Source of the DNA: Tannerella sp.
Lineage (GTDB): Bacteria; Bacteroidota; Bacteroidia; Bacteroidales; Tannerellaceae
Direction: 5' to 3'
Length of the DNA stretch: 11,689 bases
NCBI GenBank assembly: GCA_031282485.1
Contig: JAITDQ010000227.1
Coordinates: forward strand, 1 to 11,689
The notes beneath the pieces are model-generated. The model saw only the letters and a list, made by a program, of their open reading frames with translations. It was not told the origin of the DNA and ran no database searches. Below, piece after piece: positions 45-11,689 of the stretch. The position numbers and the translations under genes were made by a program. Within the stretch, counting starts at the first letter, position 1. Each line of letters opens with the position of its first letter.

Positions 45-761
45 TTAGACGAATTTTTCACGTTTCTGGAGGTTCAGGAGGCCGGTCATCAGCCATACGA
101 GGCCGCCGGTGAGGAGGAAGATGCGGCTTTTGATGATGGTGTTTTGCCAGATCATGGGGTGGATGTCGCGGGGGATGGTGAAGGGGTTCAGGAAGACGTT
201 CCAGAAGGAATTGGTTATCGTGTTGACGGCGTTCATGGAGATGAAGAATACGAGGCCGAGGATGATCATGATGACGGCGGTGCCGTTGCCGCTCTTTGTT
301 ATCGTGGAGAACATGAAGGCGAGGTTCCCGAAAAAGAGCATGGGGAAGATCAGCTGGGCGGCCATCTCGAAGATGTTGACCGGATAGAGCAGCAGGCGGG
401 CAACGTAGGCGAAGATGACGAGGATGAAGTAGTTGGCGACGTAGACCATCAGCATGCGGACGCCCCATACTTTGTAGCGGTAGTTCGGTATGCCGAAGAT
501 GATTTCGAGGATGCGGTTGTCTTCGTCGTTTTGTATGCCGAAGACGACGGGGTAGAAGATGAGCAGCAGGCAGGGGAAGAGCAGCAGGCTGTATATCAAG
601 CCTTCGCTGATTTCACTCCTGTTCCACGCCTGCTGGAACATGAAAAAGGCGAAAAAGGCAAATGCGGCCATGAGGAACCAGAAGAACTTGCCGGCAAAGA
701 TGATTTTCAGGTTGTACCGGACGACTTTTGTTACAAGTATTATACAGTTTTTTAAATTCAT
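45..761 (-). CDS. ABC-2 type transporter permease
   Basis: This 238-residue membrane protein is a half-size ABC-2 permease. Six helices can be read at about 26-43, 55-76, 103-125, 134-152, 161-179 and 213-230. After helix 2 comes the polar stretch QNDEDNRILEIIFGIPNYRYK (77-97), matching the cytoplasmic coupling region with ILEII..IP that contacts the ATPase in this family. There is no ATP-binding motif of its own. The ATG at 761 follows three bases after the stop of the RND-ABC fusion, so the two are almost certainly co-translated, and the fused ATPase is its likely energy source. It may form a homodimer, or pair with the six extra helices of the fusion to complete a twelve-helix channel. Family is confident; substrate and partner are inference. 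Confidence 0.88.
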   Translation of the reverse strand: MNLKNCIILVTKVVRYNLKIIFAGKFFWFLMAAFAFFAFFMFQQAWNRSEISEGLIYSLLLFPCLLLIFYPVVFGIQNDEDNRILEIIFGIPNYRYKVWGVRMLMVYVANYFILVIFAYVARLLLYPVNIFEMAAQLIFPMLFFGNLAFMFSTITKSGNGTAVIMIILGLVFFISMNAVNTITNSFWNVFLNPFTIPRDIHPMIWQNTIIKSRIFLLTGGLVWLMTGLLNLQKREKFV

Positions 762-764
762 ACG

Positions 765-3700
765 TTACATATTTTTCAATAGACATAAATACGCATCTTC
801 AAGGTTCGCTTCTACCTGTACGGCGCCGGGCCATGGCGGGTCGACGGACAGGTAACGCACCTGTATCCGGTCGCCGTCCTGAATGTTGTGTACGACTAAG
901 GATTTGTCGAGCTTTCCTTCGAACGATTCCCGGTCGATGTGGAACTGCCAGATTTTACCTGCGGCCATACTTACCATGCTTTCCGGTTCGCCGAAATATT
1001 TGAGTTCGCCTTTGTTGATAACCACGACTTGGTTGCACGAGCTTGAGATGTCTTCGATAATATGGGTGGAGAATATCACGATACGGTTTTTGCTCAGTTC
1101 GACGAGCAGGTTGCGGAAGCGTATCCGTTCGCGGGGATCGAGGCCGGCCGTAGGCTCGTCGACGACAAGGATGCGCGGCAGGTGGAGCAGTATGAGTGCG
1201 ATGCCGACGCGCTGCTTCATGCCGCCCGAGAACGAACCGATTTTATCGTCTTTCCGGTCGTACATGTGCACGGCTTTGAGGACATATTCTATCCTTTCTT
1301 TCCGTGTTTTTTCGTCGGTCAGGCCTTTCATTATCGCCTGATAGTCGAGGAACTCGGACGAGGTCATGTTCTCGTACGTACCGAATTCCTGAGGGAGGAA
1401 TCCGATAAGGCTTTGCAGTTCTTCGCGGTAGACGCGCGTGTCGAGGCCGTTTATCCAGATGCTGCCGTAGCTTTGTTCCAGTATGCCGGTGATGATGCGC
1501 ATGAACGTTGATTTGCCGGCGCCGTTGGGGCCTAACAGGCCGAACATTCCGGTTTTGATGTCGAACGATACGCCGCGCAGGGCTTTGAACGGTCGGCGGC
1601 GTTTCCCGATGACCGGGATGTTCTTCACGAGGCGGAACAGCGAACGGCGCAGGCCGGCAAAACGGCCGCTGATGCGTTCGATATTGATCTCCCTGTCGTA
1701 CAGGTACTGCGAGGTGACGTATATGGCGATTCCCACTCCCCACAGGACGCCGACGATGGCGATCATGGGCAGGTTGTCAAGCTTCACGTACAGCCCGTAC
1801 AGGATGAGGGGCGGGATGCTCCAGAAGATGATGCGGTTAATGTACCGTACGGCTTTGCTCCCGGCAAAACGGTAGAACAGGTAGGTGCGGACTTTACGCC
1901 ACAGGTACAGCGTTTCGGCGTAGACGGCAAACGACAGGATGAAACCCCACAGTTTGCTTTCCAAGTAGAAGTACGTGAAATACAGGCAGAAGCCCCAGAG
2001 CGCAAACTGCCAGCTTATGTTTATAAAATCCCTCAGCGAATGGTATTCGTTGCTGAGGCCGAGGCGTTTCCTCAGTTCCAGACCGCTGTTCCACTGGCGC
2101 GGGAAGCGTCCGGCGCGGTCGTATATTTTCACCAGATTGCGTATGATGATGTGAATCTCCCTGTCGGGTGCGACGACATCGGCCTTTGCACGCCGGAGAC
2201 TTGTCTGCGCGAAATACGTGACGCCGGGTATCAGGATAATGAGCGCCACGAAATATAACGACTGCCACAGCAGCCCGTCGGCATAAAGGTATATGCAGAC
2301 TGTTCCGGCGACGGCAAGCAGGAGATGCATGAGTTTCATTTTGCGCGACAGGGTGCGGTACCACAGCATGGCGTTTTCCAGTCCCATGCAAACGGTCGGG
2401 ATGATGACCAGCGTCAGCAGCGACGAAAAGGCGAGGCCGCCGATAACCGTTATGGCAAAGGGAGCGCCTATCGCGCCGGCGTATTCCGAATCGCCCATGG
2501 CCATGGGCAGCATGGCGATGATGGTCGTTATGCTCGTTATGAGGATGGGGCGTACGCGTGACAGCCCGGCCATAATGAGCGCACGTTCGCGGCGGAATCC
2601 GCGTTTGCGCAATATATTGGCATAGTCAATCAGGATGATGCCGTTGTTCACCACAACGCCCAGCAGGATGAGGAATCCTATCAGTGTGTTGGCGCTCAAC
2701 AGGCTGTTGCCGGTCATAATCAGCGCCAGCAGCGAACCGATTGCGGCCAGAGGGATGGAGAAGAGCATGACAAACGGGGTTGTCACGGATTCGAAGACGC
2801 AGGCCAGTATCATAAATATCAGGATAAAGGCGGCGAGGATGAGGAATTTGAAGTCGGCGAAGATGTCTTCTTCGTGTATCACTTCTATGGCGATGCCGGC
2901 GGGAAGGTTATAGTTGGCGATAAGCTGGTCGATGTCGGCGCGGTAGCCTTCGAGCAGGGATTTGGACTGTTCGACGCTGCGGATGAAATTATACCGCACT
3001 TCGAGCTGTTTGTCCTGATTGACGCGCGTTATGCGCGAGCGTCCGAAGCCTTTATTCACCGTCGCGATATCTTTCAGGCTGTGCAAACCGCCGTTTGCGT
3101 TCATGATTTGTACGGCTTCGAGGTGTTCTATTGTTTTTTGTTTCTTAGCTTCTTCCTCTTCTTCTTCCGGCGTTTTTTCGCGGATGATGATGTCGTACGA
3201 TTCATTTCCTACCTTAAACGTTGTGCCCGACGAGTATTCGGTGTTAAGGTCGGCCAGTCCGGAGGTTATATTGGCACGTGTTATTTCGTAGGAAGTAAGC
3301 AGTATCTGGTCGAAATTAAGGCGCACTTCCGGCTGACGGCGTGTATACGAAACCCACGAGTTGCGGATAAAGTCCTGCGCGTCGAGATAATAGCGCACAT
3401 CTTCGGCAACGAGCTGCATCATGTCGTAGTCGGCGCCTTTGACGATAACCCGTTCCTGATTGTCGCCTATGCCCAGCAGGCTCATGAACGCGACCATGCC
3501 TCCCATATCGCCGCCGCGGTTTTGTCCGCCCGTAGCGTCGGAAACGGATATTTCCGTGCCTTCGATGTTCGGCATTTTCGACTGTACGTCGGCTTTTATT
3601 TCGGAAATCTTGCGTTTTCCTATCTCGCGGTAATTTTCCTGCAGGACAAGCGTCAGCGTTGCTTCTTCTTCATTGATGCGGCTTATGATGTCTTTCTTTT

Positions 3701-5453
3701 CCGGTATTTCACTCAGCCGTTCTTCGAGCGCCCGGACTACTTTATCCGTATTTTCGAGGGTGCTTCCCGTGCGCATGGTGACGTAAATATTGAAACGGTC
3801 GGAATCGACTTCCCTGTTCTGCTGTACGGTCGTAGAGATTGATACAATCAGTGTTACGAAAAGGAGGATGACGGAACCGAAGATGGCTGTCCCGGGATTA
3901 CGCATGCACGTTTTCAGCAGGACGAGGTAAATCTGGACGGGACGCTGCGAAAGGGATATTTTTTCAGAAAACACGTTGCGGCCTTTTTTCTGCAGTATCA
4001 AATAGGCGGTCATGGGGATAAAAAGCAGTGCAACGCCCATGGAGACAAGGAGTGTTGATACGATGGATACCCCGATATTGTTTCCGATGAGTTTCACAAG
4101 GAAATTGTCGGAGAAGATGAAAGGCATAAACACGGTAATTGTCGTGAGGGTCGCCGCGACGATGGAACGCCAGACCTCTGTCGTGCCCTGTACAACGGAA
4201 CGTTCGGACGACAGGCCGGAAACCGACAGGCGGTAGATGTTTTCGAGCACGACGACGCTGTTGTCGAGCAGCATCCCGACGGCCAGCGCCATCCCGACGA
4301 GCGTGAGGCTGTTTATCGTAATTCCCGCCGCATAAAAGAAATTGAAGGCCGTATATACGGATATCGGTATCGACAGCGCGATGAAAAATACCAGCCTTAC
4401 GTTTTTAAGGAAAAACCAGAGCACAACGATTGCGAGCAGACCTCCGATGAGTGCGAGGTTGATAATCTGGTTGATGTTGTCTTCCATTGTTTCGGCGGTG
4501 TTGGAATCTATGACAACCTCCACGTCTAACGGTTCCAGACGCGCGTTCAGGCTGTTGATAACCTCCGTTGTGCGGTGCGACAGGTCAATGAGGTTGGCCT
4601 GCGCATCGTTAACGAGCGAGACGGATATGGCTTCTTTCCCGTTCACACGGCTGTATGATGTTTCTTCCTTGAGGTCGAAAAATACGGTGGCCACATCTTT
4701 CAGCAGTATGGGACCCGGCGCCACAACGATATTCTCGAGGTCGGACACTTTTGTGTAGGAGGAATTGACGTGAACGAAATACTGGTTGCCGGCGTCTTTC
4801 GCATTGCCGACGAACACTTTCTCCTGCGTATTGGCGCTCAGCAGGCTGCTTATCCTTGCGGTAGTAAGGTTCAGCGCTTTGCACGCATTCCTGTCGAGGC
4901 GTACTTCGATCGCTTTTTCGCGTCCGCCGTAGACGGTTACGGCTGCAATGCCGTCGATATTTTCGAGTTCCGTCAGGACTTCTTCGTCAACGACATTCCG
5001 CACGCGGTCGACGCCGCCCGAACCGCGCACCTGCAAGGTCATGAAATTGCTGTTCATCATCGCCACATTGACTTTCTGGACGCGCACGGTAAACTCGTCG
5101 GGAAGCGATGTCGAGACTTCTTTCATTTTTTCTTCCAGCCGCAGGGATGTGGTCTTGAAATTGACATCGGCCTTGAAGTCGATGCGTATCGACGACTGGC
5201 GGTTGCTTACCTCCGACTGTATCTTGTCGACGCCCCCGACTGTGCTTATGGCTCCTTCGAGCGGAATGATGACCTCCGATTCCACATACGAAGGGTCCAT
5301 CTCCTGCTGCGACGTGACCGATACGAACAGTACGGGCGGCTCCGCATTGGGCAGCAACTCCACGGGCAACTGTTTATACGACACGTACCCCAGCAGGGTA
5401 AGCGATATAAACAACATGCTTATTGTTATCCTTCTATTTAGCAGAATATTCAT
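765..5453 (-). CDS. RND efflux permease fused to membrane helices and an ABC ATPase
   Basis: One uninterrupted 1562-codon frame, about 500 residues longer than an RND permease. Residues 1 to about 1030 are a complete RND protein: two porter domains and twelve helices, TM4 motif GMLLDNSVVVLEN (Asp397-Asn398) and TM10 motif VVVNNG (Asn936-937). Six extra helices follow at about 1043-1058, 1062-1081, 1150-1164, 1168-1185, 1208-1223 and 1229-1247. The ABC domain has an A-loop-like strand IIIRNLVKIYD (Tyr1111), Walker A GPNGAGKST (1308-1316), Q-loop Gln1355, signature FSGGMKQ (1408-1414), Walker B VVDEP (Asp1432, catalytic Glu1433), D-loop AGLD and switch His1464. All key residues are intact, so ATP hydrolysis is expected. 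The ATPase resembles those paired with ABC-2 exporters, and an ABC-2 permease gene starts three bases after the stop. An acidic EEEEEE run (763-768) interrupts the second docking region. A separate ABC product from Met1039 or Met1042 is possible but unsupported. Substrate unknown. Confidence 0.93.
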   Translation of the reverse strand: MNILLNRRITISMLFISLTLLGYVSYKQLPVELLPNAEPPVLFVSVTSQQEMDPSYVESEVIIPLEGAISTVGGVDKIQSEVSNRQSSIRIDFKADVNFKTTSLRLEEKMKEVSTSLPDEFTVRVQKVNVAMMNSNFMTLQVRGSGGVDRVRNVVDEEVLTELENIDGIAAVTVYGGREKAIEVRLDRNACKALNLTTARISSLLSANTQEKVFVGNAKDAGNQYFVHVNSSYTKVSDLENIVVAPGPILLKDVATVFFDLKEETSYSRVNGKEAISVSLVNDAQANLIDLSHRTTEVINSLNARLEPLDVEVVIDSNTAETMEDNINQIINLALIGGLLAIVVLWFFLKNVRLVFFIALSIPISVYTAFNFFYAAGITINSLTLVGMALAVGMLLDNSVVVLENIYRLSVSGLSSERSVVQGTTEVWRSIVAATLTTITVFMPFIFSDNFLVKLIGNNIGVSIVSTLLVSMGVALLFIPMTAYLILQKKGRNVFSEKISLSQRPVQIYLVLLKTCMRNPGTAIFGSVILLFVTLIVSISTTVQQNREVDSDRFNIYVTMRTGSTLENTDKVVRALEERLSEIPEKKDIISRINEEEATLTLVLQENYREIGKRKISEIKADVQSKMPNIEGTEISVSDATGGQNRGGDMGGMVAFMSLLGIGDNQERVIVKGADYDMMQLVAEDVRYYLDAQDFIRNSWVSYTRRQPEVRLNFDQILLTSYEITRANITSGLADLNTEYSSGTTFKVGNESYDIIIREKTPEEEEEEAKKQKTIEHLEAVQIMNANGGLHSLKDIATVNKGFGRSRITRVNQDKQLEVRYNFIRSVEQSKSLLEGYRADIDQLIANYNLPAGIAIEVIHEEDIFADFKFLILAAFILIFMILACVFESVTTPFVMLFSIPLAAIGSLLALIMTGNSLLSANTLIGFLILLGVVVNNGIILIDYANILRKRGFRRERALIMAGLSRVRPILITSITTIIAMLPMAMGDSEYAGAIGAPFAITVIGGLAFSSLLTLVIIPTVCMGLENAMLWYRTLSRKMKLMHLLLAVAGTVCIYLYADGLLWQSLYFVALIILIPGVTYFAQTSLRRAKADVVAPDREIHIIIRNLVKIYDRAGRFPRQWNSGLELRKRLGLSNEYHSLRDFINISWQFALWGFCLYFTYFYLESKLWGFILSFAVYAETLYLWRKVRTYLFYRFAGSKAVRYINRIIFWSIPPLILYGLYVKLDNLPMIAIVGVLWGVGIAIYVTSQYLYDREINIERISGRFAGLRRSLFRLVKNIPVIGKRRRPFKALRGVSFDIKTGMFGLLGPNGAGKSTFMRIITGILEQSYGSIWINGLDTRVYREELQSLIGFLPQEFGTYENMTSSEFLDYQAIMKGLTDEKTRKERIEYVLKAVHMYDRKDDKIGSFSGGMKQRVGIALILLHLPRILVVDEPTAGLDPRERIRFRNLLVELSKNRIVIFSTHIIEDISSSCNQVVVINKGELKYFGEPESMVSMAAGKIWQFHIDRESFEGKLDKSLVVHNIQDGDRIQVRYLSVDPPWPGAVQVEANLEDAYLCLLKNM
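1593..2117 (-). other. Four-helix membrane segment inserted inside the ABC domain (codons 1113-1287)
   Basis: In ordinary ABC ATPases the A-loop tyrosine lies roughly 25 residues before Walker A. Here the matching tyrosine (Tyr1111 in NLVKIYD) is 197 residues before Gly1308. The extra stretch holds four hydrophobic helices joined by two short outside loops (YLESK, KLDNLP) and a strongly basic inside loop (RKVRTYLFYRFAGSKAVRYINR). It ends in a basic run, GKRRRPF, before the strand KALRGVSFDI resumes the ABC fold. Loop charges fit the positive-inside rule with both ATPase pieces in the cytoplasm. That the first piece really is strand 1 of the ABC domain is inference from its motif. Confidence 0.6.
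5450..5453 (-). promoter_or_regulatory. ATGA stop/start overlap coupling the two RND genes
   Basis: On the minus strand the four bases ATGA contain both the ATG of the fused RND-ABC gene and the TGA of the preceding RND gene. Such an overlap usually means translational coupling. It fixes the start of the downstream gene and argues that the two RND chains are made in linked amounts. Confidence 0.85.
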
Positions 5454-8400
5454 CCTTTTCGTCTGAGGCTGTTTTTCATTTGTTCAAACACATAATACAC
5501 GCATGGTATGACAACCAGACTCATCAGCGTCGACGTGACAAGTCCGCCTATCACCGCAATGGCCATTGACGAACGTAAGGCTGCGCCTTCGCCGATGTTA
5601 AACGACATGGGCAACAAGGCCAGAATCGTCGTAAGGCTTGTCATTATAATCGGACGTATACGCTGCTGCCCGGCCTCCACGATTGCGTCGGCAAGCGGCA
5701 TGACCGTTTTCAGCTGGTTGATGCGCCCGACCAAGAGAATCGAATTGTTGACCGCTATACCTGCCAGCATGATGATGCCGATTACGCCCATAATGTTAAT
5801 CGTCATGCCGGTAATTAAAAACAGCAGGACGGCGCCGACGAGGGAGAGCGGTATGGTCAACAGGATCGTGAACGGATGCAGGAGCGATTCAAACTGTGAT
5901 GCCAGTACCATATAAACGAGTATCACGGAGAGCAGCAAGGCAAACATAAGGCTGTTCATCGATTCCTGACGTTTTTCTTCTTCGCCGGTGACGACGATCG
6001 AATAGTTTGCGGGGAGGTCGATGTCGCCGGTTGCTTGGCGTATCTGCTGAGCGACCTTGTCGAGCGACTTGCCGGCATCCTTGTCGGCGAGTATCTTGTT
6101 TATACGGCTTTGATTGCGGCGGAAGATTTCTTTAGGCGCCGTCGAACTTGTGACGGTGGCGATTTCGCGCAGACGGAACTCCTGATTTCCGTTTTTAATG
6201 ACAAGGTTCTGCAATTCGCTTACGGTGATATCGGGTACCTTGATTACGATATCGCGCATCTCGCCTTTAAAATCCATTTTCCCGACATCGCGTCCCTGTA
6301 ACTGTTGCCTTAACTGCTGGATAACCGTCGCAACGCCGATGTTGTTTATCCCGGCTACGGTACGGTCGATCGAGACGAGCAGCTCCGGCGCGCCGTCTGC
6401 CATGGACGATTTTATATTGTAGATGCCGTCAATCGCCTCCATCCTTGCCAGAACGTCGTCGGTAACAGCTGCAATTTCATCAAGGTCTTCCCCTTTGACT
6501 TCCACGACGAGGGGGGCTTCTTCGCTTCCGAAAAGCGAACCTAAGGAATTGTCATCCTGCTTGAATGTCAACTCAAGCCCGTCGATATTATTCGTTGCCT
6601 CCACGAAACGCGACATGACTTCTTCGGGCAGTAACGGTGACGATTTCGAGAGTATCACCTTCATCATCGCCGTATGTTCCCCTTCGAACACTTTGTTTTC
6701 CGACGCGCCTTTGCCGACATGGCTGTATATGGTACACAGGCTGTCGCCGCTTATCGTGTGGAGCAAATATTCCAGATTGTCGACGACTGCATCGGTTCGT
6801 TCGAGGCGGGTGCCTTCGGGCAACTTCACCGAAATGCCGAACGTTTTACTTTCCGAACGCGGCAGGAACTCCGTCCCGACAAACGGGATAAGCAATATCG
6901 TGGCGGTTAGCAGCAACACGGAAACAAATATCACTAACCAGCGCCGTTTGAGTAACGAGGCGAGAATACCGCCATACCACCTGAACTGTATGGATTTCGT
7001 TTCCTTCCCGGCGGTTTTGCGTTTCGACAGTTTATCATACAGCATCGGAATCACAAGCAAGGCGACGAACAGCGAGGAGAAGAGCGAGAAGGCTACCGTC
7101 CATGCCTGATCTTTAAACAGTTCGCCCGAAACGCCGTGCAGGTATACAATGGGGAGGAATACGACGATCGTCGTCAACGTAGAGGCAATGACGGCGCCCG
7201 CCACTTCGTCGGTTCCGGCGACAATCATATCTTCGTCCACAAGCCCCTTCTTCTGCTTCTGAAATATACTTTCGATAACGACAATGGCATTGTCCACGAG
7301 CATGCCGCCTCCCAGCGCCAGTCCGCCCAAAGTCATGACGTTAAGCGTCAGTCCGTTAAAATACATAAGGTTGAATGTCGCCACAATGGAAATCGGTATC
7401 GACAGACTGACGATTAGGGTTGTGTTTATGCGGCGAAGAAAGACAAACAGTATCAGTACGGCAAGCCCCATTCCCAACAGGGCGCTGTCCTTCACTTCGT
7501 CGATAGCCTGCTTGATAAATATGCCCTGATTGCTTATAATCCGGAATTTGTATCCGGGCAAAGCCTGCTCGATAAGCCCCAGCTGACGGCTGATAAGGTC
7601 GACAACCTTGACGGTATTGTACTGCATTTCCTTATAAACGGACAGTCCGATACAGCGTTCCCCGTTTATGCGTACGATATTTTCGGGTCTTGCGTTTTCA
7701 AATTTCACGGTTGCGACTTCGTGCAGGAACAGGGGCGCCCGGCTGTCATCTGTTGTCGAGGCGGCTGTTCCACCGCTACCCGAAGCTGTCCCACCGGTAC
7801 TCGAAGTTGTCGCTTCGGTCGATTTATAACTGACGATAAGATTCTCAAAATCGGCCTCGGAAGTGAACAGCGACGAACTTTTGACGATATACTGCAAGCC
7901 AAGCTCACTCACGCGCCCGCCGGAAATGCTTTGATTGTTGGCTTCTACCCTCGAAGCGATGTCGTCCATGGTCAGGCCGAAGGCGCTTAGCTTGTAGGGG
8001 TCGGTTTTGATTGTCAGGACGGGTGTTTCCTGACCCGAAAGGGCTACTTCGGCAACTCCTCCGAGGCGTATCAGTTCGTTGCGTATGTAACTTTCCGCCA
8101 TTTTACGCAATTCCGCCATATCCGTTATCGTGCGGTGCGACATTGCAATAAGGACTACCGGGTCGGTGTTGGGGTCGTATTGCGTGATATTGATGGATTC
8201 TATCTCCGTGTTCTGGGCAAACGGGCTCATGGCTTTTTGAAGGTCGAGGAAAGCCGCGTCCATATCCTTGTTCTGTACATATTCTACCGTTATACGCGCA
8301 GACCCTCCCCTGACAACCGACGATACCTGCGTCACATCGTTCTGGCGTATCGCCATGGATTCCATGTTTTCTATAAACATTTTCTCTATCTCCTGCGGCG

Positions 8401-8566
8401 GACGCTCACCGGCCTCAATCTCGACAAAAAGGCGCGGAGAATTCATGTCAGGCAACAAATCCACGTTAAGACGGTCATACGAAATCTTTCCCAGCAACAG
8501 GATCGCCAGTACAACCATGCTTATGGTAACAGGATTTTTTATTGCAAATCTGATTATTTTTCTCAT
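5450..8566 (-). CDS. RND efflux permease subunit (HAE1-like, AcrB/SwrC-type)
   Basis: At 1038 residues this is a full-length inner-membrane RND permease, which takes substrate from the periplasm or outer leaflet and passes it through the adaptor to TolC. The classic layout is present twice: TM1 at about 12-30, a large periplasmic porter domain, TM2-6 (about 365-510), TM7 near 545-565, a second porter domain, and TM8-12 (about 870-1030). The TM4 motif is GGMLVDNAIVVIES with Asp425 followed by Asn426, where AcrB has two aspartates. The TM10 motif is AVNNS (Asn940-941), where AcrB has a lysine. This DN/NN pattern is, as I recall, usual in SwrC-like RND proteins. A Ser/Thr/Gly/Ala-rich insert at about 249-276 falls in the hairpin just before the LHEVATV strand of the first docking region. 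The gene overlaps the next by ATGA. Confidence 0.95.
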   Translation of the reverse strand: MRKIIRFAIKNPVTISMVVLAILLLGKISYDRLNVDLLPDMNSPRLFVEIEAGERPPQEIEKMFIENMESMAIRQNDVTQVSSVVRGGSARITVEYVQNKDMDAAFLDLQKAMSPFAQNTEIESINITQYDPNTDPVVLIAMSHRTITDMAELRKMAESYIRNELIRLGGVAEVALSGQETPVLTIKTDPYKLSAFGLTMDDIASRVEANNQSISGGRVSELGLQYIVKSSSLFTSEADFENLIVSYKSTEATTSSTGGTASGSGGTAASTTDDSRAPLFLHEVATVKFENARPENIVRINGERCIGLSVYKEMQYNTVKVVDLISRQLGLIEQALPGYKFRIISNQGIFIKQAIDEVKDSALLGMGLAVLILFVFLRRINTTLIVSLSIPISIVATFNLMYFNGLTLNVMTLGGLALGGGMLVDNAIVVIESIFQKQKKGLVDEDMIVAGTDEVAGAVIASTLTTIVVFLPIVYLHGVSGELFKDQAWTVAFSLFSSLFVALLVIPMLYDKLSKRKTAGKETKSIQFRWYGGILASLLKRRWLVIFVSVLLLTATILLIPFVGTEFLPRSESKTFGISVKLPEGTRLERTDAVVDNLEYLLHTISGDSLCTIYSHVGKGASENKVFEGEHTAMMKVILSKSSPLLPEEVMSRFVEATNNIDGLELTFKQDDNSLGSLFGSEEAPLVVEVKGEDLDEIAAVTDDVLARMEAIDGIYNIKSSMADGAPELLVSIDRTVAGINNIGVATVIQQLRQQLQGRDVGKMDFKGEMRDIVIKVPDITVSELQNLVIKNGNQEFRLREIATVTSSTAPKEIFRRNQSRINKILADKDAGKSLDKVAQQIRQATGDIDLPANYSIVVTGEEEKRQESMNSLMFALLLSVILVYMVLASQFESLLHPFTILLTIPLSLVGAVLLFLITGMTINIMGVIGIIMLAGIAVNNSILLVGRINQLKTVMPLADAIVEAGQQRIRPIIMTSLTTILALLPMSFNIGEGAALRSSMAIAVIGGLVTSTLMSLVVIPCVYYVFEQMKNSLRRKG
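7764..7805 (-). repeat. Two tandem 21-bp units coding a Ser/Gly/Thr linker in the RND permease
   Basis: Positions 7764-7784 and 7785-7805 are 21-base units identical at 18 of 21 positions. On the minus strand they encode SSTGGTA and SGSGGTA (residues 255-268). A degenerate third unit may follow at 7806. The insert lies in the hairpin of the first docking subdomain, expected at the top of the porter facing the adaptor or TolC. Expansion by whole units keeps the frame. Confidence 0.75.
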
Positions 8567-8620: not shown

Positions 8621-9673
8621 TCATTTCATCACCTTAACGCGACTGTTCTCCCGCAGCGTTTCATATCCGCGTATGATGAGGTTGTCGTTTTCTTTCAGGC
8701 CTTCCGTAACTTGGATATTATCTTCATCCTCAAGACCTGTCTGTATGTTGCGCACAATCGCGGTATTCCTTTCCACGATGTAGACATACTTCCTGTTCCT
8801 CATCGAAAGGATTACCTCTTTGGGGATGATAATCACACTGTCGGCCTTGTCGACTACAACATCGGCCTTGACAAACATACCCGGACGCAGCTTCAACTCC
8901 TTATTGTCAATGAGTATCTTCCCCTTAAACGTCCGCGTTTCGGAGCTTATCGCGGGCGACAGTTCGCTGATAACGCCGCCAAGCGTATCGTTGGGCAAGG
9001 TGTAATGGGTGATGAATACGGGCTGGTTGGCTTTGATGTACCCAATCGTGCTTTCGGGGAGGTTTATATCCATGTACAGGCGTGCGTAATCCATTATCCC
9101 GACCATTGGCCGCCCCTGTTCCACACGGCCGTTTACGGTATAATGAGGCAAGGAAACAATCACCCCGTCGAACGGCGCTTTTATGTTCATTTTTTCGAGG
9201 TTTATATCCGCATTCTCAAGGTCGTAGCGGGCGTTTGTGATCCTCACTTCCGTGTTACGCATTTCGCTCAGGGTCACGCCTCCTTTTTCGTACAAAGCTT
9301 TTTGTTTGCTCTGTTCCTGCTCCGCTATTTCGAGGCTGAGTTTTTTCGATTCTAATGCGATGCCGTTTTCGTATTCTCTATTTTCGAGGCGAATGATGAG
9401 TTCGCCTTTTTTAACGGCGTCGCCCAGTTTGAAGGGTTTGCCTGTCCTGGGGTTATTCTGAAGGAGGTATATACCGCTCGTCTCGGAGCTGAGATCGACG
9501 CTATAAGTGGCCAGCGCCGTTCCCGTGGTATTAATCAACTTGCTGATAGAGCCTTTTTTAAGTTCCTGTACGGATACGGGCGTCTCAATATCATTCTGGG
9601 TACTTTGAGGCTGATTGTTACATGCCGTAAGTAAAACAACAATTGCCGCAGATAATAAGCTTTTATACTTCAT
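8621..9673 (-). CDS. RND efflux periplasmic adaptor lipoprotein (MFP/HlyD-AcrA family)
   Basis: This 350-residue adaptor links the inner-membrane RND pump to the TolC duct. Residues 1-18 are a lipoprotein signal with lipobox LTAC, so Cys18 should be lipidated; Asn residues follow at the next two positions. Domains in order are a membrane-proximal strand region (about 30-60), the first half of the lipoyl-like domain (about 60-98, with a KLGDAVKKGE turn), an alpha-helical hairpin (about 100-161, tip near KGGVTLSEM), and the second lipoyl half (NIKAPFDGVIVSL, about 163-190). A beta-barrel (RLYMDINLPESTIGYI and onward) and a C-terminal membrane-proximal domain (VYIVERNTAIVRNIQTG to the end) complete it. 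The IKAPFDG motif is the family hallmark. The gene sits 37 bases after the TolC gene and 54 bases before the first RND gene. It is the only adaptor in the window, so it presumably serves both RND chains. Confidence 0.94.
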   Translation of the reverse strand: MKYKSLLSAAIVVLLTACNNQPQSTQNDIETPVSVQELKKGSISKLINTTGTALATYSVDLSSETSGIYLLQNNPRTGKPFKLGDAVKKGELIIRLENREYENGIALESKKLSLEIAEQEQSKQKALYEKGGVTLSEMRNTEVRITNARYDLENADINLEKMNIKAPFDGVIVSLPHYTVNGRVEQGRPMVGIMDYARLYMDINLPESTIGYIKANQPVFITHYTLPNDTLGGVISELSPAISSETRTFKGKILIDNKELKLRPGMFVKADVVVDKADSVIIIPKEVILSMRNRKYVYIVERNTAIVRNIQTGLEDEDNIQVTEGLKENDNLIIRGYETLRENSRVKVMK

Positions 9674-9710: not shown

Positions 9711-11204
9711 CTATTCGTTATTTTTAAGTTCTTTTACCGGCACAATAGGCCTGTCTTGCTCAAAATCGTATAAAGAAAGTATTTTGAGGTTCAATAACTC
9801 AATCTTATAATTTATAAGCGTCTGTGAATAGGTGATTTTCTTATTGGAGAGCTGTGTCTGGAACTGGCTTATTTCCATTCCGGTGAGGTCGCCTTCGCGG
9901 TATCTCGTAAGGTTTATATCATACGTAAGCTGTGCGTTGCGGACGCTTTTTTCCGCTATATCAATCTGTGTACGCAGATTTTCCAAACGCCTCCATACCT
10001 GACGTATATTAAGCTCTATGTCTATTTTCTGGTTTTCGTGTTCGAGTTTCGCGATTGTCTGCGCTGTTTTCTGTGCCTTCACACGCGCTTTCTTCTCGCC
10101 CCAGTCGAAGATGGGAACGGTGAAACTTATCGCCACTCTTGGGTTTTGGGTCGGATTGTTATATATGTTGGAGAATTTCTCGTGGTCGCCGATTATACCT
10201 ATCGACAGGGAGACATCGCCTTTAAATTCGTTCAGTCCTTTCGTTTGAATCATCTGTAGTTCGGCCAAATCCATGTCTATCTCGCGCTGGCGCAATTCCA
10301 TACGCGAGGCCAAACCGCTGTTTACAGCCTGTTCCAGATTGACGGCGACCGGGCTAACCTTTATCTCCGCTTTCACATTTATGTTTTCGGTAAGCGACAT
10401 TCCCAGCGTCTGCTTGAGTTCGTCCTTGGCATTTTCGAGGGATACGACGCGCTCTTCGACAGCAGACTGCGCCGTTGCCAGATTGAGTTCGGCCTGATAA
10501 AGTTCTTCCTTGGCGGAAAGGTCGGCTTCGACCTTATTCTGAATGATGTCAAAGCTCTGCCGGGCGTTCTCCAGTTCGTCCCTGCTTATTTCCAGATTGC
10601 TCTGTGCCATATAGACGGCATAAAACTGGTTCGTAATACTTCTTTCGGTATTAAGACGCTGCAAAGCATAGCTGATGCCGGCATTTTCATAATCAAATTC
10701 TATCCGCCGGAGTTCCATTTTACGGCGGTTGTAGGTGAAAACCGGCTGGGTAAGCCTGAGGTAAAGGTCGTTGCTGAAGGCTTTATTCCTGTTATCAATG
10801 CCTTCTACCGTAGATTGGTTGTCCTGCCACCCGAACGTGTTTATGAGGGAAATTTCTCCGTCGGTCAACAAAATGGGCTGCGAGACCTGAAACGTTCCGC
10901 TGGAGTTAAACGTTTCGTTTGTATACCACTGCGACAGCCTGTTGTCAAACCTTCGGGTTTTACTGTAGCTTATCGGGTCGAGATTAAGGGAAAACTGCGA
11001 TTTGAGGGACGCCCGCTGGGCAACCAGATTCAACTGATACCTTTCGAGGTTCAGTTTGGAACGTATCAAAGTAGGATTATTCTCCTCCGCAATATCCAGC
11101 GCTTCTTCGATAGTGATTGCCTCCTGTGCGGACGAGAGCCACGACAAGCCTGCAATCAATATCGTCACACATGCGAATTTTATCCGTAAACGTCTGTATT
11201 TCAT
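9711..11204 (-). CDS. TolC-family outer-membrane efflux protein
   Basis: This 497-residue protein is the outer-membrane duct of the tripartite export system encoded downstream. Residues 1-26 form a signal peptide: basic start (MKYRRLRIK), hydrophobic stretch, then a WLSSAQ cleavage region. Cys12 lies inside the hydrophobic part and does not fit a lipobox, so I do not call it a lipoprotein. The mature protein starts with the family's usual element (ITIEEALDIAEENNP). The body is two copies of strand plus long helices; segments such as QAELNLATAQSAVEERV and FQTQLSNKKITYSQTLINYK are typical of the helical barrel. Its length is normal for the family. The ATG at 11204 follows an A/T-rich leader without a clear Shine-Dalgarno box. 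The stop is TAG, 37 bases before the adaptor gene. Its position directly ahead of adaptor and RND genes supports a dedicated channel. Substrate unknown. Confidence 0.93.
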   Translation of the reverse strand: MKYRRLRIKFACVTILIAGLSWLSSAQEAITIEEALDIAEENNPTLIRSKLNLERYQLNLVAQRASLKSQFSLNLDPISYSKTRRFDNRLSQWYTNETFNSSGTFQVSQPILLTDGEISLINTFGWQDNQSTVEGIDNRNKAFSNDLYLRLTQPVFTYNRRKMELRRIEFDYENAGISYALQRLNTERSITNQFYAVYMAQSNLEISRDELENARQSFDIIQNKVEADLSAKEELYQAELNLATAQSAVEERVVSLENAKDELKQTLGMSLTENINVKAEIKVSPVAVNLEQAVNSGLASRMELRQREIDMDLAELQMIQTKGLNEFKGDVSLSIGIIGDHEKFSNIYNNPTQNPRVAISFTVPIFDWGEKKARVKAQKTAQTIAKLEHENQKIDIELNIRQVWRRLENLRTQIDIAEKSVRNAQLTYDINLTRYREGDLTGMEISQFQTQLSNKKITYSQTLINYKIELLNLKILSLYDFEQDRPIVPVKELKNNE

Positions 11205-11254: not shown

Positions 11255-11689
11255 TCACCGTCTGACAATTTTAACCGCATCGGCCGTTACCGACCTCAGA
11301 CTGCAATTGTTTGTCAAAACGACATGTACCGTATCTTCATTAAAATAATATGTTCCCAAAATGCTCCAGCCTTCTTCCGAACGCCGGAGGTTTATATAAG
11401 CGCTTTCTTCGTATTCGTCATATTTCACTTTGAAAGAATATTCGGCATCTCCGCTTCCGCCGCCTCTGTTGCCGCCTCTGTCGGCATAGCGTCTCTGACG
11501 GAGTTCGTCGGGTTTATATACATAATAGTATAAATCATATTGCCCGGTCGCGGGGACGGGTATCTTCCATGTGGCGGTCTGGCTGCCGCTGCCGCTCTTA
11601 ATGACGTATGCGGAACGGACGTGCGTGCCGTAATATTTATCGTTTGTCGTCAGCGTCCATTGCAACGGGGCGCGCCAGTTCGATACGCC
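11255..11689 (-). CDS. Golvesin/Xly-like C-terminal domain protein (5' end outside window)
   Basis: The reading frame is open from the window edge to a TGA at 11257-11255, so only the last 144 or so residues are seen. A TTG codon at 11665 could serve as a start, but the frame runs on upstream of it without a stop and the domain sense continues (NWRAPLQWTLT), so I treat the gene as truncated by the window. The visible part is a beta-rich module with the pattern YYGTHVRSAYV, then ATWKIPVPATGQYDLYYYV, then WSILGTYYF and a C-terminal TADAVKIVRR. This resembles the Golvesin/Xly carbohydrate-binding-like domain at the end of many Bacteroidota proteins annotated as xanthan lyase. The family call is from memory of the pattern. 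A Gly/Arg-rich loop interrupts the domain. Fifty bases separate it from the TolC gene, so it may be the preceding operon member. Its catalytic or main domain, if any, is not visible. Confidence 0.6.
   Translation of the reverse strand, partial: GVSNWRAPLQWTLTTNDKYYGTHVRSAYVIKSGSGSQTATWKIPVPATGQYDLYYYVYKPDELRQRRYADRGGNRGGGSGDAEYSFKVKYDEYEESAYINLRRSEEGWSILGTYYFNEDTVHVVLTNNCSLRSVTADAVKIVRR
11459..11482 (-). repeat. Two tandem 12-bp units coding an (D/N)RGG loop
   Basis: Positions 11459-11470 and 11471-11482 are 12-base units identical at 11 of 12 positions (gccgcctctgtt, gccgcctctgtc). On the minus strand they encode DRGG then NRGG, followed by a GSG run. They sit in a surface-type loop of the Golvesin-like domain. 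Unit length is a multiple of three, so copy-number change would keep the frame. Confidence 0.7.

Follow-up and report, generated by a model that had tools for sequence, protein, structure and literature searches.

Gene organisation of the locus

The window, i.e. the whole stretch of DNA analysed in this study, was the entire contig C281 (11,689 bases) of a genome assembled in 384 contigs with 80% completeness. The genes of the window described here were located on its reverse strand. In the order of transcription, they encode the C-terminal end of a large ABC-2 protein, which carries a Pfam Golvesin_C domain and is cut by the contig end (positions 11255..11689), a TolC-type outer membrane factor (9711..11204; Pfam OEP), a periplasmic adaptor or membrane fusion protein (8621..9673; NCBIfam TIGR01730 above cut-off), an unfused RND permease of 1038 amino acids designated RND1 (5450..8566; Pfam ACR_tran), the fusion protein under study (765..5453), and, directly downstream of the latter, a putative ABC-2 (type V) permease of 238 amino acids (45..761). 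The RND1 stop and the fusion start shared four bases.

Translation confirmed the preliminary description in that a single ORF runs from ATG at 5453 to TAA at 765 and encodes 1562 amino acids. Pfam ACR_tran matched residues 2–1021 (E = 1.9e-153) and ABC_tran matched residues 1292–1436 (E = 2.7e-26), each exceeding its curated cut-off. The ACR_tran match extended over model positions 3–1016 of 1021, i.e. a full-length RND domain, as is expected of the HAE type (AcrB/MdtB-like). The proposed presence of an RND module and an ABC module on one chain was thus borne out by Pfam and by an alignment of 71 sequences, consisting of the window protein and the proteins of 70 of 80 homologous loci (ORF >1540 amino acids, not open at the start); both modules look complete, and the fusion is conserved.

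Conservation and distribution of the fusion

Both Pfam domains were present in every one of the best 120 of 4548 database matches, and 113 of the 120 were 1487–1585 amino acids long; two of the 120 were the window's own protein. It had been suggested that such proteins might be filed under plain names, and entries titled 'efflux RND transporter permease subunit' or 'ABC-type multidrug transport system ATPase subunit' were indeed among those found; the fusion explains why these entries bear just half their true name. Among the best 80 of 555 loci in named genomes, which were 46–87% identical to the window across the junction region, 72 had closed ORFs; 69 of these were 1559–1603 amino acids long, and the remaining three were 1486, 1057 and 391 amino acids long. 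Taxa named in the record titles include Bacteroides faecis, Parabacteroides goldsteinii, P. faecis, Tannerella forsythia, Prolixibacter, Mariniphaga, Draconibacterium and Maribellus. When the window was compared with the locus L035 using our own script, this one pair gave dN/dS values of approximately 0.04–0.21 in every segment including the junction, amino-acid changes being far scarcer than silent ones.

Since the same fused ORF occurs in many named genomes, a sequencing or assembly error and an isolated mutation are excluded; full-length homologues were found, and not separate RND and ABC genes divided by a stop around codon 1035. An assembly chimera or isolated mutation, which the single contig in a fragmented genome might have suggested, has practically no probability in view of the same junction in B. 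faecis, P. goldsteinii and Prolixibacter bellariivorans and of the database and locus ORFs.

Because the query covered the junction, the set of 80 loci was chosen for fused forms, and the frequency was taken from wider samples. Within the same genus, the fusion was found in 13 of 19 genomes, incomplete genomes included, and some copies were split by contig ends. Across the order, four of 41 genomes (G000, which is the genome of the window, G025, G029 and G435) carried the fusion; in G426 and G434 from the same 41, the operon was present and the contig stopped inside the gene ahead of the nucleotide-binding domain (NBD). G426 was considered as an unfused version and rejected, its contig ending within the gene. 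Across the phylum, the junction was matched in 6 of 395 genomes; the other phylum matches listed, apart from the second copy in G000 itself, started at profile position 228 of 336 at the earliest and corresponded to the NBD end without the RND. One of the 80 loci, L114, is labelled Actinomycetota and spans the junction at 47% identity; it is probably a misplaced contig from a mixed assembly.

Unfused forms were searched for by comparing residues 1093–1562 with proteins of approximately 258–822 amino acids. The best 120 of the 8000 candidates scored were taken as mostly gene fragments, many being on contigs of a few kilobases and several being labelled partial. Some short forms do exist (P0139, P0175, P0191, P0132 and P0154, the last of 803 amino acids from Bacteroides sp. 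519). Breakage, truncation or splitting of the gene may account for these, and rare split versions are possible.

Layout of the fusion protein

The RND permease module occupies residues 1–1033 (2355..5453, reverse strand, as are all segments below) and shows the 12 transmembrane (TM) helices and the periplasmic loops of the ACR_tran family. No Pfam match was obtained within residues 1024–1290. In an AlphaFold2 model, two extra TM helices (residues 1037–1057 and 1061–1090; 2163..2354) link the RND module to the NBD. These are followed by the first beta strand of the NBD with the A-loop Tyr1111 (residues 1098–1111; 2121..2162), an insert of approximately 177 residues in which four TM helices are predicted (residues 1112–1288; 1590..2120), the remaining ABC ATPase matched by Pfam ABC_tran with the Walker A, Walker B, Q-loop, signature and H-loop (residues 1289–1500; 954..1589), and a C-terminal tail of the NBD modelled as strands and a helix with block pLDDT values of 87–91 (residues 1501–1562 and the stop codon; 765..953). 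The four helices of the insert were placed at residues 1147–1163, 1167–1195, 1200–1225 and 1228–1253.

The ABC landmarks of the preliminary description were found where it had placed them, namely Walker A at 1308–1316, Gln1355, the signature at 1409–1411, Glu1433 and His1464. While this placement of the motifs was correct, the domain actually begins ca. 190 residues earlier than had been assumed, at the strand formed by residues 1102–1111, and a membrane segment breaks its continuity. Standalone NBDs align from this strand, with residue 1 of 4yer_B at model position 94 and residue 2 of 1vpl at model position 96 (model position plus 1004 gives the residue of the window protein), and the structural alignments run from before the insert to beyond it. 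Ile1102, Val1108, Lys1109 and Tyr1111 were invariant in the 71 sequences. The NBD is complete, with an A-loop, Walker A and B motifs, Q-loop, signature and H-loop all present, and is not contiguous, the insert following its first strand. The catalytic residues were kept in 71 of 71 sequences, with Thr in place of Ser1315 in two, and the flanking positions vary. The confidence of the NBD model was moderate (pLDDT 79.9, pTM 0.56; pLDDT 64–73 at residues 1305–1354 around Walker A). In profile comparisons, the extra helices showed no similarity to either ABC-2 protein of the operon. In G377, the fusion protein was 1633 amino acids long (L129:1665-6563), and its match to the window protein had a gap of approximately 37 residues near window residue 1138, inside the membrane insert.

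Operon context

RND1 was the nearest upstream operon gene in 65 of the 67 loci with room for it, and the gap was at most 247 bases in 62 of these 65; the ABC-2 permease gene followed the fusion gene in 69 of 71 loci. Loci without room and L056 and L070, whose frames are broken, were left out of these counts. Gene order was read in the 11 larger of 18 regions, L002 and L029–L034 being set aside as short contigs or cut. Ten of the 11 had an ABC ATPase gene followed in turn by those for the large ABC-2 protein, TolC, the adaptor, RND1, the fusion and the ABC-2 permease; among these 10, the last gene of L026 is cut by the contig end and L024 has two extra frames ahead of the fusion gene. The end of the 11th region is cut off. 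The extra open frames of L024 (5810-7451, G014) lie between RND1 and the fusion gene and correspond to 426 and 124 amino acids. As exceptions, L067 has the fusion gene without a neighbouring RND1 or permease gene, and L059 has the fusion and permease genes without RND1. A second copy of the operon, ca. 68% identical, was found in the genome of the window, with its adaptor and RND1 genes on C148 (L137) and its fusion end and ABC-2 permease gene on C297 (L002), both parts being cut by contig ends.

The 238-residue permease gave no Pfam or NCBIfam match, and a search of its profile against solved structures yielded no matches at E 1. Its structure model predicts the fold of a type V exporter, i.e. 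a six-helix membrane subunit with a coupling helix; the Foldseek E-values for this model were weak (best 0.09). Profile comparison revealed no mutual similarity between this permease and the large ABC-2 protein. The latter was 1091–1314 amino acids long in 10 full-length copies, and in the three copies scanned, Golvesin_C scored above cut-off in all three and ABC-2 in one. In the copy at L026:1354-5277, an ABC-2-like membrane part at the N-terminus precedes a long stretch that is presumably periplasmic and ends in Golvesin_C.

The separate ABC ATPase of the operon is 40–44% identical to the fused NBD and was its best match in the genome of the window after the fusion copies (231 bits, versus 110 bits for the next). 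The two NBDs may thus stem from an old duplication inside the operon. The first 50 residues of this ATPase gave 139 matches against solved structures. With a separate ATPase and a second ABC-2 protein in the operon, more than one ATPase-permease pairing is possible.

Proton relay residues

The proton relay of AcrB consists of D407, D408, K940 and R971, and substituting one of them abolishes export, as stated in PMC8277102; GX3DX6E is described as a motif of TM4 in PMC5719797. The motif was present in TM4 of the window protein (G393, D397 and E404), and the TM4 Asp equivalent to D407 was kept throughout as D397 in the fusion (71/71) and D425 in RND1 (66/66; the window and 65 RND1 frames scoring >1100). 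Asn398 in TM4 and Arg968 in TM11 were also present in all 71 fusion sequences, and we take the TM11 Arg of the fusion and of RND1 to be the equivalent of AcrB R971. The equivalents of D408 and K940, as placed by alignment, were Asn in the fusion (71/71) and in RND1 (66/66), and the full relay D407-D408-K940 plus R971 was found in neither protein.

We compared these positions in seven other RND proteins of the same genome, leaving aside a match on C283 that fell below the family cut-off. Asp-Asp together with Lys or Arg was present in four of them; the two encoded on C316 had Asp-Asn with Asn, and the one on C161 had Asp-Ile, its TM10 not being covered. Among the 25 nearest non-operon RND proteins returned from the order, 21 kept Asp-Asp with Lys or Arg and four did not. 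No ABC ATPase was found in the stretches fetched around these four or around the C316 pair; none was found anywhere on C316 (10,387 bases), and both of its RND proteins are without the D408 and K940 equivalents. On C316 (G000, L178; 433-9889), genes for an adaptor, an RND permease (1025 amino acids), a TolC-type protein and an RND permease (1077 amino acids) stand in a row.

Since the loss of D408 and K940 also occurs in RND proteins without nearby ABC genes, this residue pattern does not show a takeover by ATP. In PMC5719797, loss of the TM10 charge (K940) is said to go likely with loss of the D408-type negative charge, with the ability to be protonated maintained. The argument that the missing D408 and K940 prove the replacement of protons by ATP was rejected on these two grounds, the sharing of the loss by RND proteins with no ABC gene in the fetched stretches and the description of the double loss as compensated in that review (PMC5719797). 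Judged by their residues, the fusion and RND1 are of a single-Asp RND type that may well still use protons; the lack in both of the D408 and K940 equivalents, which AcrB needs for export (PMC8277102), was counted against the arrangement favoured below.

Possible mode of action

Taken together, the conserved genes resemble one export machine that could draw on two sources of energy. As the neighbouring gene models as the membrane subunit of a type V ABC exporter, the fused ATPase may power that exporter and be merely tethered to the RND. We tentatively favour, at a little under an even chance, a mixed tripartite machine in which an ABC exporter is held on an RND heterotrimer and substrate is handed across. 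The fused ATPase and the downstream ABC-2 permease would form a NosFY/PmtCD-like type V exporter, covalently held at the cytoplasmic and membrane face of a heterotrimer of the fusion and the unfused RND. ATP hydrolysis would lift the substrate out of the cytoplasm or the inner leaflet and deliver it on the periplasmic side to the RND porter domains, which would send it on through the shared adaptor and TolC; with its single TM4 Asp, the RND cycle would probably still be driven by protons. If two of the three RND subunits were fusions, there would be just one pair of NBDs per trimer; with three fusions, one NBD would be left without a partner. The two-RND pump MdtBC is described as a B2C trimer in PMC7015380, and with MdtB2C as a precedent, we infer a 2:1 ratio of fusion to RND1. 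An equal alternative would be that one fusion NBD pairs with the separate ATPase of the operon. The absence of partner genes at L067 and L059 was counted against the exporter being held on the RND in this manner.

The preliminary description had suggested a dual-energised or ATP-gated RND pump. In an ATP-driven or ATP-gated RND of this kind, the NBDs would push or lock the RND cycle through the six extra TM helices and ATP would replace or supplement protons. We consider this unlikely. The complete fused modules on which it drew were confirmed and the link is covalent; besides, the membrane helices that split the NBD could provide a stiff mechanical connection, and the D408 and K940 equivalents are absent from all fusion and RND1 sequences while most of the nearest non-operon RND proteins are intact. 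ATP drive or gating was nevertheless left unsupported, since the relay change was also found in ABC-free RND proteins (the four of 25 and the C316 pair, with no ABC ATPase in the fetched stretches), the K940 loss likely accompanies the D408 loss with protonation kept (PMC5719797), and a likely ABC membrane partner adjoins. A hybrid class is improbable as well; here, NBDs joined to the RND trimer by the six extra helices, four of which lie within the NBD, would hydrolyse ATP to drive or gate the conformational cycle of the trimer mechanically, and a single machine spanning the envelope would be energised by ATP as well as by the proton gradient. If ATP does act on the RND cycle, the protein may represent a new transporter class.

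Equally doubtful is a tether and nothing more, with two independent pumps sharing the adaptor and TolC and the fusion fixing their ratio and place with no transfer of substrate or energy. Fusions of RND permeases with outer membrane factors in Bacteroidales join pump parts with no new mechanism, and the separate ATPase and the large ABC-2 protein could make one complete ABC pump. Against this, the extra helices and the interruption of the NBD are conserved, with dN/dS of approximately 0.12–0.21 in the one pair compared, which is tighter than a loose linker needs. That the fused ATPase serves in assembly or regulation and transports nothing is very improbable given the retained catalytic residues and the ABC-2 permease gene that follows in nearly all loci.

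Comparison with known systems

In the favoured arrangement of an ABC exporter held on an RND heterotrimer, the components are of known kinds; no description of an RND-ABC fusion, of this combination or of an interrupted NBD was found in the open-licence literature. RND and ABC transporters are usually treated as separate power routes for export across the Gram-negative envelope. A protein conserved in gut and environmental Bacteroidales thus offers a natural system for studying the coupling of a proton-type and an ATP-type engine, and also allows one to ask whether one machine hands substrate from the cytoplasm to the outside. The interrupted NBD is itself an unusual architecture in a highly conserved fold.

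MdtABC-TolC and MuxABC-OpmB, whose make-up was taken from PMC7015380, are alike in having an adaptor, two different RND proteins of the same broad family and a TolC-type channel. The gene order has an MdtBC-type layout, in which two distinct RND genes adjoin each other and are accompanied by one adaptor gene and a TolC gene. To our knowledge, neither of those systems has an ABC part. In the alignment, TM4 of MdtB contains Asp-Asp and its TM10 a Lys, both of which are changed in the fusion system. The type V exporters NosFY and PmtCD share an NBD and a small six-helix ABC-2 permease with predicted matching folds; unlike theirs, the NBD of the fusion is joined to an RND permease, broken by four TM helices and encoded beside RND, adaptor and TolC genes. 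Among named ABC families, the NBD scored highest against the GldA- and DrrA-type ATPases (TIGR03522, 183.3 bits; TIGR01188, 164.5 bits), with both scores far under the curated cut-offs (402.6 and 312.45, respectively), and those ATPases are separate proteins.

The Bacteroidales fusions of RND permeases with outer membrane factors likewise carry a pump part at the C-terminus of an RND permease, and the fusing of pump parts is thus not in itself unique; the part fused there is TolC-type and not an ATPase. Two such ORFs, L183:1620-6131 (1503 amino acids) and L184:2336-6676 (1446 amino acids), both on the reverse strand, carry ACR_tran plus OEP on one chain.
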